A stretch of DNA of 64,000 nucleotides from Tautonia plasticadhaerens (GTDB lineage: Bacteria; Planctomycetota; Planctomycetia; Isosphaerales; Isosphaeraceae). Position numbers and translations under genes: made by a program. Shown here piece by piece: positions 45,247 to 50,857 of this stretch. The stretch spans positions 1,364,001-1,428,000 of the forward strand of contig NZ_CP036426.1 of the NCBI RefSeq assembly GCF_007752535.1, in the 5' to 3' direction. How positions within the stretch are numbered: position 1 is the first letter of the stretch; every line of letters begins with the position of its first letter. Under the pieces are notes generated by a model, which did no database searches, was not told the origin of the DNA, and saw only the letters and a program-made list of their open reading frames with translations.

Positions 45247-46785
45247 TCAGTTGGCCCAGGCGGGCTCCTCGAGCAGTAATCCGTACTTCTTCATTTTCTT
45301 GTAGAGCGTCGTCCGGTTGATGTCGAGCACCCGGGCAGTCTCCTGGCGATTCCAGCCGAGGGCCTCGAGTGCCTCGAGGATGATCCGCTTCTCCGGCTCC
45401 TCGAGCGCCTCCTTCAGCGGGCGGATCTGCCCGGCCGCCCGGCTGCGGTCGACGGCAGGGCGGGGGCTCATCGCCCCGGGGCCGGTGGCGGCGAGCCCGA
45501 GATCGGCCGGCTCGACCTGCCTACCGCGGCAGACCAGCACCGCCCGCTCGACCGCGGCTTCCAGTTCCTGGACGTTGCCTGGCCAGTGGTAGCGACGAAG
45601 CAGCAGGAGGGCCTCCGGGCTGAAGCCGCTGACCGGCCGGTCGAACCGCTGGGCGGCCCGGAAACGGAAGTGCTCGGCCAGTCGGTCGATGTCGGCACCC
45701 CGATGTCGGAGCGGGGGGATTTTGAGCGTGACGACGCTGATCCGGAAGTAGAGGTCCTGGCGAAAGCCGCCCCGGTCGACCAGCTCCAGCAGCTCTTCCC
45801 GGGTCCCCAGGACGAGCCGGACGTCGGCCCGCTCCGGGCGGACCGATCCGATCGGCTCATACTCGCCGTCCCGGAGCAGTCGGAGCAGCTTGGACTGGAG
45901 CTCCGGGGCCAGGGCCGCCACATCATCGATGTAGATCGTGCCGCCCCGCGCCCGCTCGACCTCACCGGGGACGGCCGGGCCGACCATCAAACGTTCCCCG
46001 AAGATGGTCCGCTCGATCTCGGCGGCGGATTCCCCCAGGCATCGGACCTCGACGAAGGGCCCGAGTCCCCGGGGGCTCTGCCGATGGAGGGTTCGCGCCA
46101 CCAGGCTCTTGCCCGTCCCAGGCTCGCCCTGGATCAGCACCGGGGCCCGGGTCTGGGCGATCGACTCGGCCAGCTCGATCGCCTGGCGGAGGCTCTCGTC
46201 CTCCCCGATCAGGACCGCCCCCTCGCCGCTTCGCTGCGGGACGGGCCATCCCGACCGGGCCGGCGGCCCTCCGCCGTCGACCACAGTCCAACCGTGACCG
46301 ACGGAGGGATCCTCGGCCCTCGATCTCGGGTACGATTGCGAGGGGCCCGATCCGTTGACCGACCCGTGACCGAGGGGGACGGCCGTCGATGACGCGGGGG
46401 AGGGCCGAGGGGCCAGGTCGCTCCTCCCCAGCACCTGGGCGACCGCTGCCCGGAGTTGCGTGGCGGGCAGCGGGAACCGCAACACGGCGTCGGCGCCCCG
46501 CTGGCGGGCCTCCCGGGTCCGCTCGGCGTCTCCGACCGAGAAGAGCAGGACCACGGGCAATGCGGGGAACTTCCGCTTGACGTAGTGCAACAGCTCGAGG
46601 GCGTCGGGGTCGTCCGGATCGACCCCGGCGATGATCAAGTCGACCTCGCCCCGCTCGAGGCGGCGGACGGCCGCCCGGTCGTTGTTGGCCTCCTCCAGCT
46701 GCACGCAGAGCGTCTGGAGCATCGAGGTCATCAGCATGCAGGCCGACGAGTCGGGGTGCACGATCAGGATGCGTGTTTCTTTCAT
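45247..46785 (-). CDS. NtrC-like Fis-family regulator with degenerate receiver and AAA+ domains
   Basis: The 512-residue protein has the order of a bacterial enhancer-binding protein: receiver domain (1-120), linker, AAA+ domain (about 190-420) and a Fis-type DNA-binding helix-turn-helix at the end (NRQETARVLDINRTTLYKKM). Yet the key residues are changed. In the receiver, the phospho-accepting Asp is Gly54 and an acidic-pocket Asp is Pro11. In the AAA+ domain Walker A is kept (GEPGTGKS, 220-227), but the sigma-54 contact GAFTGA is missing between 262 and 280, Walker B is IDD rather than DE (287-288), and the sensor II Arg is Gln in WPGNVQELE. The DNA-binding part is intact. It is therefore probably not a normal phosphorylation-switched sigma-54 activator. 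The start at 46785 begins MKETRILIV. Confidence 0.85.
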   Translation of the reverse strand: MKETRILIVHPDSSACMLMTSMLQTLCVQLEEANNDRAAVRRLERGEVDLIIAGVDPDDPDALELLHYVKRKFPALPVVLLFSVGDAERTREARQRGADAVLRFPLPATQLRAAVAQVLGRSDLAPRPSPASSTAVPLGHGSVNGSGPSQSYPRSRAEDPSVGHGWTVVDGGGPPARSGWPVPQRSGEGAVLIGEDESLRQAIELAESIAQTRAPVLIQGEPGTGKSLVARTLHRQSPRGLGPFVEVRCLGESAAEIERTIFGERLMVGPAVPGEVERARGGTIYIDDVAALAPELQSKLLRLLRDGEYEPIGSVRPERADVRLVLGTREELLELVDRGGFRQDLYFRISVVTLKIPPLRHRGADIDRLAEHFRFRAAQRFDRPVSGFSPEALLLLRRYHWPGNVQELEAAVERAVLVCRGRQVEPADLGLAATGPGAMSPRPAVDRSRAAGQIRPLKEALEEPEKRIILEALEALGWNRQETARVLDINRTTLYKKMKKYGLLLEEPAWAN

Positions 46786-47122: not shown

Positions 47123-48016
47123 CTAGGCACGAGGGTGGCTTCGACGATACGCCTCGATCAGCCGTTCCCGGGAGACGTGCGTGTAGACCTGTGTCGTGGT
47201 GAGGCGACGATGGCCCAGCAGTTCCTGAACGCTCCTGAGGTCCGCCCCGCGATCGAGCAGGTGCGTCGCGAAGCTGTGACGAAGGGCGTGCGGGCTGGCC
47301 CTGGGGTCCAGCCCCATCGCCAACAACCTGATTCGGAACAATCGGTCGACGCTCCGGGTCGAGAGCCTCCGCCCGTACCGATTGAGAAAGATCGCCGGCT
47401 CGTCGGCACGGGCCGGTCGCCGGGCGCCCAGCCATCGGGCGAGCCAGCCGACCGCCTCCGGCCCGATCGGCGCCAGCCGCTCGCGGCGTCCCTTGCCCCG
47501 GACCCGGACGGCTCCGCGTTCGGCGTCGAGGTCGTCGAGATCCAGGCCGACCAACTCGGCGACCCGGAGTCCACCCCCGTAGAGCGTCTCGAACATCGCC
47601 CGGTCTCGAATTTCGAGCGGCGAACCGGCCGGGATCGAGTCCAGTAGCGTAATCACGTCCTCGACCCGGAGCGCCCTCGGCAGCCTCCTGGGTTGCTTGG
47701 GATTGCGGAGTCCGGTTGTCGGGTCGACCGGGACCGAGCCCTGCCGGCGGTGATACTTGAAGAACGACCGAAGGCTCGCCAGCCGCCGGGAGATCGTCCC
47801 CGACGCGTAACCTCGACCCGCCAGCCAGACCGAGAAGGCTCGGAGCCGCTTCGGGTCGACCGCCATCGGATCCGGATCGGGCTTCCCCCCGGAGGACTCG
47901 CGCAAGAACTCCAGGAAAACCGAGAGATCCCCCTGGTAACCCCGGAGCGTGTGCTCCGATGCCCCTCGCTCTCGCTTCAGGTGCTCCAGGAACGCGGCAA
48001 CGGCCGGGTGCCTCAT
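47123..48016 (-). CDS. xerC: Tyrosine recombinase XerC/XerD
   Basis: Xer recombinases resolve chromosome dimers at dif sites and are also used by integrative elements. The 297-residue protein has the N-terminal SAM-like core-binding domain and the full catalytic set: Arg151 (GGGLRVAEL), Lys175 (RGKGRRE), His243 and Arg246 (HALRHSFATHLL), His269 (LGHRR) and the nucleophile Tyr278 (QVYTHV). Length fits XerC/XerD and not a phage integrase. No other mobile-element gene is near, so it is taken as the housekeeping enzyme. The exact XerC or XerD identity is not decided by what I can see. Confidence 0.9.
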   Translation of the reverse strand: MRHPAVAAFLEHLKRERGASEHTLRGYQGDLSVFLEFLRESSGGKPDPDPMAVDPKRLRAFSVWLAGRGYASGTISRRLASLRSFFKYHRRQGSVPVDPTTGLRNPKQPRRLPRALRVEDVITLLDSIPAGSPLEIRDRAMFETLYGGGLRVAELVGLDLDDLDAERGAVRVRGKGRRERLAPIGPEAVGWLARWLGARRPARADEPAIFLNRYGRRLSTRSVDRLFRIRLLAMGLDPRASPHALRHSFATHLLDRGADLRSVQELLGHRRLTTTQVYTHVSRERLIEAYRRSHPRA

Positions 48017-49147: not shown

Positions 49148-50857
49148 CTATTCGGCGGCGGTGGCGAACGGGTCGTCGTCGCCCGACTCCTCGGCACCCT
49201 TCATCGGCAACTCGACGGTGAACCTCGACCCCACCCCCGGCGTTGAGTCCACCACGATCCGGCCGCCGTGCTCACGGACGATCTTGTCCGAGACTGGCAA
49301 TCCGAGGCCGGTGCCCCGGGAGCCCTTGGTCGAGGCGAAGACCTCGAAGATCGTCGCCTGCTCGGGCTCGGGGATGCCGATCCCATTATCCTCGACGACG
49401 ACCAAGGCGGTCTGTGCATCGGCGTCGAATCGGTTCGAGATGATGACCCTGGGATCAGGCCTCCCCTCGGCGGCGTCGAGGGCGTTGGTCACGATGTTCA
49501 GGATCGCCCGGTGGATGCCGTCCGGGTCGAAGTGGAGCGTCGTCGCGTCGGCCGCCGGCCGCCATTCCAGGGACACCGACAACTCGGCGGCCCTCGCCTG
49601 CATCAGCTCGACCACGTCGCCGACCACTTCGTTCAGGTCGCTCGGCTCCAGGGCAGGCTCACGGTCCTTGGAGAAGGAAAGCATGTCCATCACGAGGTTA
49701 TAGATCTTCGCCTGATTCTTCTCGACGATCCCCCAGCCCCGGCGGGTGATCGTCTCGTCTTTCTGATCGAGCCCCATCTCGACAAGGTAACTCCCGCCCT
49801 TGATCCCCTGCATGATGTTCTTGATGTGGTGGCTCAGCGTGGCGATCGTCTGGCCCACGGCGGCGAGCCGTTCGGCCTCCACCTTGTCCCGGTAGAAGTT
49901 GGTGCTCTCGATCGCCAGGCCGGCCTGGTGACCGATGGCGACCATCAGCATCAGGTGCTCCTGCGTGAATTTCCCCTTGGGTCGTCCCCGATCGGGGCCC
50001 TCGACCTCGACCTCTCGGGAGCCTCGGACGTCGGCATAGAGCACGCCGAGGGTGGTATGCCTCCCCTGGACCGGCACGCAGATCGCCTCGCGGATCCCAT
50101 AGTCGACGATCGACTGCGAGGGCCCGAACCGGCGGTCGACGGGAGCATCGAGGGTGATCACCCCCTGGCCCTCGGTCAGGACGTGGTCGACGATCGACCG
50201 GGAGATTCGCATGCGTTCCTCCGGGTCATCGGCCGGCCCTCGCCACCGGACGGCCTTCGGCTCGAGCGCCCCCCCCGGGTCGAGGAGCAGGATCGCGCCC
50301 CGGTCGGCCCCGATCGATTCGAAGACGAGCTGGAGGATCTGGGGCAGCAGGGCATCGGGATCGAGCACGTGGCTGATCGCCCGCGTCGCCTGATACATCA
50401 CCGAGAGGTTGGCCAGCCGGACCTTCAGCCACTCCCCGGCCGACTCCGGTGCGCCGAGCATCGGTTGGCCATGCCCGACCGGCAGGCTCCGGACGATCTC
50501 CGATCGATCCTCGGCGCGGGCGAGGGCGAGGAGGTCGACCCGGTCGGTCAGGTCGTCCTTGGCGGCCGGGCTGGAGTCGAAGAGGAGCACGGTCGAGCCA
50601 ATCTGGACCCGATCGCCGGGCCTGAGCGTGGCCTGATCGACGAGCAGGCCATTCACGAAAGTCCCGTTGGCCGAGCCGAGGTCGACGAGCCGGAAAACCG
50701 CATCCCCCTCGGGCCGGACCTCGGCATGGCGGCGAGAGACCTCGCTGTCATGCAGGCGGATCGGACTTGAGCGTTCCCTGCCCAGGGCGGTCGGTCGGTC
50801 TGAGAGCGAGAACCGCCTGCCCCGATCGGCCCCCTGGACGACGAGCAACGAGGCCAC
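49148..50857 (-). CDS. FHA-GAF sensor histidine kinase
   Basis: The 569-residue kinase has an N-terminal FHA domain (residues 1-95) with the phosphothreonine-binding residues Arg27, Ser41, His44 and Asn64 (SEVSRRH, GSANGTFVNG), a GAF domain (about 150-325) and a histidine kinase core with His343/344 in LSHHIKNIMQG, N box NIVTNALDA, G1 DNGIGIP and G2 GTGLGLPV. There is no membrane segment, so it senses a cytoplasmic signal. FHA domains bind phosphorylated Ser/Thr proteins, so the kinase could link Ser/Thr kinase signalling to a His-Asp pathway. No response regulator is beside it. Confidence 0.92.
   Translation of the reverse strand: MASLLVVQGADRGRRFSLSDRPTALGRERSSPIRLHDSEVSRRHAEVRPEGDAVFRLVDLGSANGTFVNGLLVDQATLRPGDRVQIGSTVLLFDSSPAAKDDLTDRVDLLALARAEDRSEIVRSLPVGHGQPMLGAPESAGEWLKVRLANLSVMYQATRAISHVLDPDALLPQILQLVFESIGADRGAILLLDPGGALEPKAVRWRGPADDPEERMRISRSIVDHVLTEGQGVITLDAPVDRRFGPSQSIVDYGIREAICVPVQGRHTTLGVLYADVRGSREVEVEGPDRGRPKGKFTQEHLMLMVAIGHQAGLAIESTNFYRDKVEAERLAAVGQTIATLSHHIKNIMQGIKGGSYLVEMGLDQKDETITRRGWGIVEKNQAKIYNLVMDMLSFSKDREPALEPSDLNEVVGDVVELMQARAAELSVSLEWRPAADATTLHFDPDGIHRAILNIVTNALDAAEGRPDPRVIISNRFDADAQTALVVVEDNGIGIPEPEQATIFEVFASTKGSRGTGLGLPVSDKIVREHGGRIVVDSTPGVGSRFTVELPMKGAEESGDDDPFATAAE

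Follow-up and report, generated by a model that had tools for sequence, protein, structure and literature searches.

A sigma-54 activator was probably converted, in an ancestor of the Isosphaeraceae, into a DNA-binding regulator that needs neither sigma-54 nor phosphorylation. The evidence comes from a degenerate NtrC-type regulator of 512 amino acids encoded by Tautonia plasticadhaerens in the 64,000-nucleotide stretch analyzed here (the window), and from its relatives. The gene lies on the minus strand at 45247 to 46785, with its ATG at 46785 and a stop codon that ends at 45247; the plus-strand translation of the same interval has stops. As judged by alignment, the receiver and sigma-54 hallmarks have been lost throughout the family, the protein is under purifying selection, and the helix-turn-helix (HTH) is conserved. 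Labeling the gene a "sigma-54-dependent response regulator" would be misleading throughout the Isosphaeraceae.

Pseudo-receiver and AAA+ motor

An earlier note on this DNA had described an NtrC-like regulator that lacks receiver, sigma-54 and ATPase hallmarks and keeps its DNA-binding domain, and both Pfam and our alignments bear this out. Pfam finds a Response_reg domain in the query (34.6 bits, cut-off 30.2), a Sigma54_activat domain (PF00158, 138.2 bits) that identifies the AAA+ sigma-54 interaction domain by homology, an AAA+ lid, and a Fis-type DNA-binding domain (HTH_8, 57.7 bits, cut-off 22). The best named neighbor, with 72% identity, is from Tautonia sociabilis (Isosphaeraceae). The AlphaFold model of the query (mean pLDDT 81.4, pTM 0.53, with low-confidence linkers at about residues 124-188 and 432-457) matches the AAA+ domains of NtrC1 (1ny6; Z 28.9, 2.2 Å over 243 residues) and PspF (2c9c; Z 28.3, 2.4 Å over 239) and the receiver of ArcA (1xhe; Z 20.4, 1.8 Å over 120). 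The multi-domain matches, to Brucella NtrX (5m7n; Z 27.6, 18.5 Å over 366) and VpsR (7v2b; Z 26.2, 12.4 Å over 368), have a large rmsd, which we take to reflect domain arrangement.

Residues 1-120 (46426 to 46785, minus strand) adopt a receiver fold in the model, and in the alignment H10, P11, G54, F82 and F104 replace the D, D, D, T and K of a receiver. The earlier note had correctly placed Gly54 in the phospho-Asp column and Pro11 in the acidic pocket, where His10/Pro11 occupy the positions of the acidic pair. Its reading of Arg103 as the switch Lys must be corrected, as alignment on the following Pro puts Phe104 in the switch-Lys column and Arg103 in the preceding Thr column. It had also missed the Thr82 column, which is Phe in the query.

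The phospho-Asp is present in 0 of 40 family proteins versus 34 of the 35 canonical-type proteins that reach that column, and the switch Lys in 0 of 40 versus 35 of 36. Thr or Ser occupies its receiver column in 0 of 40 family proteins, and residues 10 and 11 are acidic in 0 of 39. The family has a pocket signature of its own: Pro11 (35/40), Phe82 (35/40) and Tyr or Phe104 (37/40). Canonical proteins mostly carry Thr in column 103, but of the 40 family proteins 19 have Lys there and 17 have Arg; a basic residue has thus arisen beside the switch column. The acidic pair, phospho-Asp, Thr/Ser and Lys of a phosphorylatable response regulator are all missing, and a receiver fold that lacks at least one of these five residues falls within the definition of a pseudo-receiver, or atypical response regulator.

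The AAA+ alpha/beta domain (residues 191-360; 45706 to 46215, minus strand), delimited by Pfam, alignment and model, keeps R342 and R348, which we take to be the arginine fingers from PspF; the sensor, Arg-finger and glutamate-switch names for family columns are likewise assumed from PspF and NtrC. Walker A (GEPGTGKS, residues 220-227; 46105 to 46128, minus strand) and, by alignment, the Fis-type HTH are intact, as had been claimed. Of the 40 family proteins, 39 have Lys226, and 38 and 36 have the respective arginine fingers, a pattern that fits nucleotide-dependent oligomerization.

The L1 loop region (residues 262-280; 45946 to 46002, minus strand) has no GAFTGA in the alignments. The earlier note had reported the motif missing between 262 and 280; the motif is indeed absent, but the loop is not simply deleted, since one of variable length remains. 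Measured over residues 263-281, it spans 19 residues in the query and 23 in every one of the 41 canonical-type proteins, and its length ranges from 9 to 51 among the 40 family proteins, indicating that the motif was lost and loop length became free. GAFTGA occurs in 0 of 40 family proteins, whereas all 41 canonical-type proteins, which come from other genomes, have a GAFTGA-like motif (40 match the regular expression and the 41st has GAFTSA).

This variation in loop sequence and length, together with the lack of even a GAFTGA-like motif in any of the 40 proteins, makes it improbable that a substitute L1 loop lets the family go on activating sigma-54 promoters. Sigma-54 is still encoded, as rpoN is present in 42 of the 45 family genomes searched; the window's genome, for which the earlier note had raised the question, is among them. 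Twenty-two of the 40 loops are 22-24 residues long, near the canonical length, and may hold an unrecognized contact surface, and the other ATPase residues that we scored (Lys226, DE, both Arg fingers and sensor II Arg) are all kept in 8 of 40 proteins.

The remainder of the ATPase site has drifted. Walker B is reduced to I-D-D in the query (residues 286-288; 45922 to 45930, minus strand), and the AAA+ lid (residues 361-431; 45493 to 45705, minus strand, from Pfam and alignment) has Q406 in place of the sensor II Arg, both as originally noted; the replacement of the sensor I Asn by Arg329 had escaped notice. The sensor I Asn is found in 0 of 40 family and 40 of 41 canonical-type proteins. Walker B is DE in 16 family proteins, DD in 8, EE in 7 and something else in 9, and DE in 41 of 41 canonical-type proteins, while sensor II is Arg in 26 family proteins and Gln406 in 7. 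The tree places one of the 41 canonical-type proteins, L065, apart from the canonical clade; leaving it out gives 33 of 34 for the phospho-Asp and 40 of 40 for DE. All but 2 of the 41 canonical-type proteins already lack the glutamate-switch Asn in its PspF-based column, which makes the absence of this Asn uninformative about loss of activity.

A sigma-54-dependent bacterial enhancer-binding protein (bEBP) carries GAFTGA in loop L1 and a complete ATPase site made up of Walker A, a Walker B DE, the sensors and the Arg fingers; the former is absent from all 40 family proteins, and the latter is broken in the query by the Walker B DD, R329 and Q406. Because Walker B and sensor II are variable, ATP hydrolysis has probably been lost in the family or become dispensable, and we infer that ATP is bound with little or no hydrolysis. 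Some members, such as those that keep the full scored set, might hydrolyze ATP. The window's own genome encodes another activator-like protein without GAFTGA (L127; G000:C1:7068356-7068817, minus strand), with an altered Walker B (GE) and a different HTH.

Conservation across the Isosphaeraceae

Clear orthologues (above 240 bits, with no internal stop) occur in 43 of 45 Isosphaeraceae genomes. Of the two exceptions, G025 has a fragment where a contig ends, and G037, which is 77% complete, gave ordinary paralogue-level matches alone. The most conserved part is the PLKEALEEPEKR helix with the Fis-type HTH (residues 454-504; 45274 to 45426, minus strand), with a mean pairwise identity of 0.90 over 39 family proteins, compared with 0.57 for the receiver, 0.44 for the AAA+ domain and 0.56 for the lid. 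The corresponding means for 35 canonical-type proteins are 0.71 for the HTH block, 0.61 for the receiver, 0.76 for AAA+ and 0.60 for the lid. Relative to canonical proteins the family AAA+ domain is relaxed and the HTH tightened, in a comparison of two sets sampled to unequal depth. The identity means leave out six of the 41 canonical-type rows, which have no receiver column, and L173, a truncated member of the 40 that is kept in the residue and loop counts and also left out of one alignment.

Full-length dN/dS lies between 0.08 and 0.32 across 13 close pairs picked by hand; several of the dS values are above 1 and rough. By domain it is 0.01-0.14 for the receiver and 0.04-0.29 for AAA+, and dN is 0 for the HTH in 8 of the 13 pairs. 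The tested domains are under purifying selection.

These results make a decaying gene or an assembly error hardly credible. Many hallmark residues have been lost, and the neighboring ilvB has a frame break in the assembly, but none of the 43 best family matches contains an internal stop, the losses are shared, dN/dS is low, and the HTH is nearly invariant. Family-wide conservation rules out assembly error as the source of the changes. The earlier proposal of a new subfamily in place of simple decay stands, with the receiver and GAFTGA losses common to 40 of 40 proteins. Whether all five changes then listed would be conserved in homologues has a divided answer: the losses of the phospho-Asp, acidic pair, switch Lys and GAFTGA are conserved, while Walker B and sensor II vary (16 proteins still have DE and 26 still have the Arg), so these last two changes mark part of the family only.

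The break in ilvB (acetolactate synthase large subunit, plus strand) splits it into two frames between about 43440 and 43448 of the window. Its homologue in L138, of the same genus, is a single intact frame, and the break is either a sequencing error or a real frameshift. One genome, G005, has a second copy of the regulator (L211:5650-7086, plus strand) that is still more altered, with no GAFTGA-like motif, CLRN at Walker B and the HTH LDRTTLHKKMKKYG; it groups with the first G005 copy in the tree, on a long branch.

The distribution of conservation also bears on two further explanations. In one, which we consider unlikely, the protein co-oligomerizes through the AAA+ ring interface with a canonical activator of the same genome and poisons or tunes that activator. 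The window's genome does contain 13 strong sigma-54 activator matches, at 218-252 bits versus 141.5 for the query protein, and the Arg fingers of the ring interface persist in 36-38 of 40 family proteins, but an HTH that is the most conserved part and an AAA+ domain that is the least conserved folded domain are the reverse of what a purely AAA+-mediated role would leave. In the other, a somewhat less likely one, the protein is an architectural, Fis-like DNA-binding protein with many sites, and the receiver and AAA+ domains serve only as an oligomerization scaffold. A near-invariant Fis-type HTH beside degenerate effector parts agrees with this picture; the conserved pseudo-receiver, with its low dN/dS and a specific new pocket, goes beyond the needs of a passive scaffold.

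Origin, neighboring genes and upstream element

In a tree of the AAA+ and HTH regions, with loop columns removed, one clade with SH-aLRT 100 contains 21 family rows (the window protein plus 20 of the other 39 family proteins) together with the second copy from G005. This clade joins 27 canonical planctomycete rows with SH-aLRT 98. Outside the combined clade fall 13 paralogues from the window's genome, a set that leaves out the weaker L125, L127 and below. The tree was made with a quick method and has some long branches. Homologues with all motifs intact, which the earlier note had named as evidence against its reading, do exist, but were found only outside the Isosphaeraceae, as the sister clade. 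Judged by their motifs, the sister group elsewhere in the phylum is one of ordinary sigma-54 activators with a similar HTH. Three NtrC-like proteins from Gammaproteobacteria and Eisenbacteria MAGs (L073, L074 and L076) also have no GAFTGA and partly altered receivers. L073 and L074 retain Asp at the phospho column, and L073 and L076 lie outside the family in the tree and look like separate losses.

When genomes were searched with a profile of the linker helix and HTH, strong matches (E 4.1e-22 or better) came from 36 of 38 family genomes, from all 71 genomes of families f2, f5-f7 and f9-f16, and from none of the 39 genomes of families f3, f4 and f8, where the best match is 2.3e-15 (all hand counts). 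The orthologue therefore seems to be missing from these three families of the class.

The next conserved gene upstream of the regulator, on the same strand, encodes an XerC/D-type tyrosine recombinase (47123 to 48016, minus strand; Pfam Phage_integrase). It is found there in 38 of 40 family loci, the two exceptions being at contig ends; the synteny loci leave out G006, G017 and G019, in which the orthologue is present. The gap from the xerC stop to the regulator ATG is roughly 170-550 bp, and in a few loci it contains a short ORF that is unconserved and perhaps spurious. Of 19 canonical loci, whose proteins all carry a GAFTGA-like motif, 4 also have a recombinase of this family upstream: it is the adjacent gene in L224 and L230, and a single gene on the opposite strand intervenes in L222 and L226. 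Such a recombinase was found at none of 45 other loci (41 canonical-type and 4 more distant, with flanks of up to about 5 kb). The neighbor shared by the family and some canonical loci indicates that the regulator gene was probably altered in place, with four canonical loci as the basis for this step.

Further upstream in the window, at 49148-50857 (minus strand), is a gene for an FHA-GAF histidine-kinase-like protein, whose family is represented at 14 of the 40 regulator loci. Several canonical orthologues, mostly those of Phycisphaerae-type loci, are immediately preceded by weak kinase-like matches.

The element TTGAC-N13/14-YGAY-N-TA separates xerC from the regulator in 25 of 38 family loci (shuffled mean 0.07, maximum 1). 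A profile search also found it in 25 of 38, starting 178-274 bp before the ATG in 24 loci and 429 bp before it in one. The element (TTGACG-N17-TA) has the spacing of a -35/-10 promoter, and conserved bases also lie within the spacer and downstream (L146 and L160, for example). A stricter pattern occurs in 20 of 45 family genomes, once in each and always at the regulator locus, with 0 matches for the reversed-pattern control. A related element precedes the canonical-type gene in 11 of 79 loci (shuffled mean 0.01), two of which, L218 and L219, are near-identical relatives; start codons for these 79 upstream regions were guessed by script. Upstream regions were also compared with a stringent sigma-54 promoter pattern, which gave 0 matches in the 38 from the family, and 2 in the 79 canonical ones against a shuffled mean of 0.74.

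The regulator possibly autoregulates through this element in part of the family, which is a lead for those members and not a finding about the window's gene. The element is not recognizable in the window's genus (L136-L139) or in L140, L154-L156, L161, L162 and L164. Since the window's genus has no element even though its HTH is unchanged, the case for autoregulation is weak for the window's genome. No further regulon targets were found, as each element pattern matched at most once per genome. Another element pattern matched 6 of 148 genomes, five times upstream of the regulator and once on a contig without a placeable gene. Two of these six have 3 mismatches, and the reversed control matched in three genomes, so those two are unreliable.

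The element was also considered as a Xer dif site. This was rejected as unlikely, since 7 of the 8 genomes compared have the regulator closer to dnaA than to the terminus; in these seven the distance between the gene and a DnaA-like hit is about 9-20% of the main contig, and in G001 about 42%. Nine genomes were searched for dnaA, and G039, where the gene and dnaA are on different contigs, was left out; several contigs are not closed, and two DnaA-like hits occur in 7 of the 9.

Proposed mechanism and known systems

We propose that a phosphorylation-controlled sigma-54 activator in the Isosphaeraceae ancestor lost both phospho-control and its contact with sigma-54. Bound ATP would hold the oligomer together and hydrolysis would not be required. 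The HTH would bind the same DNA sites as the canonical relatives, or similar ones; with just 59-69% identity between canonical HTH blocks and that of the query (54-residue block, 10 rows), identical operators are not assured. The regulator would repress or activate sigma-70-type promoters, as R. capsulatus NtrC and VpsR are reported to do, and in place of a histidine kinase its activity would be set by protein level, or by a ligand or partner at the pseudo-receiver. Many family members may also regulate their own promoter through the conserved TTGACG-N17-TA element. ATP binding, shared operators, action with sigma-70 and autoregulation are the parts of this model that we infer. A bolder version, which we offer tentatively and with some doubt, is a family-wide, doubly dead NtrC on ancestral operators that works as a nucleotide-loaded, kinase-free sigma-70 switch for promoters including its own, with the Pro-Phe-Tyr/Phe pocket as a new site for a ligand or partner.

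The conversion appears to have happened in a single lineage, and elsewhere in the phylum other families have the unconverted orthologue, which has a similar DNA-binding domain and sometimes shares the neighboring gene. The pair is well suited to studying how a regulator can switch polymerase class without giving up its sites, what is sensed by a pseudo-receiver, and whether regulation can be driven by ATP binding alone.

The closest comparison is the canonical orthologue of other Planctomycetota (Schlesneria, Phycisphaerae and others). It is like the family in its linker helix and HTH and forms one supported clade with it, but differs in having the phospho-Asp, the switch Lys, a GAFTGA-like motif and the Walker B DE. 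Brucella NtrX (5m7n) also has no GAFTGA in the aligned L1 region and has a three-domain fold similar to that predicted for the query, but it keeps the Walker B DE, and NtrX retains a phosphorylatable receiver. TyrR of E. coli is a GAFTGA-less sigma-70 regulator of the same superfamily, with an ACT/PAS input and no receiver. XibR was considered as a comparable case and set aside, as its motifs are kept.

Several NtrC relatives are already known to work with sigma-70. According to the sections of PMC10274813 that deal with them, the NtrC proteins of R. capsulatus and Caulobacter lack GAFTGA and act at sigma-70 promoters. They share with the query an NtrC architecture without GAFTGA and differ from it in that, per the same sections, the phospho-Asp is kept and phosphorylation is needed; Caulobacter NtrC is described there as needing both Walker A and Walker B. 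VpsR, as cited in those sections of PMC10274813, likewise has no GAFTGA, acts at sigma-70 promoters and keeps its phospho-Asp. FleQ, in the relevant part of PMC10723142, has a non-canonical receiver and acts at both sigma-70 and sigma-54 promoters. These two c-di-GMP-responsive NtrC relatives are structural matches to the predicted model of the query, and no c-di-GMP site was recognized by eye in the query linker.

No title among the top-ranked literature matches describes this subfamily, and among those matches we found no description of a pseudo-receiver, missing GAFTGA and drifting ATPase site combined and fixed across one family while other families have the canonical orthologue. A paper that deals with both GAFTGA and planctomycetes kept only proteins bearing GAFTGA. 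Pseudo-receivers are common and poorly understood, and are defined, in the pertinent text of PMC12632262, by the lack of at least one of five conserved receiver residues, including the Asp. The query differs from pseudo-receivers generally in that it couples the loss of the receiver to the loss of the sigma-54 contact.
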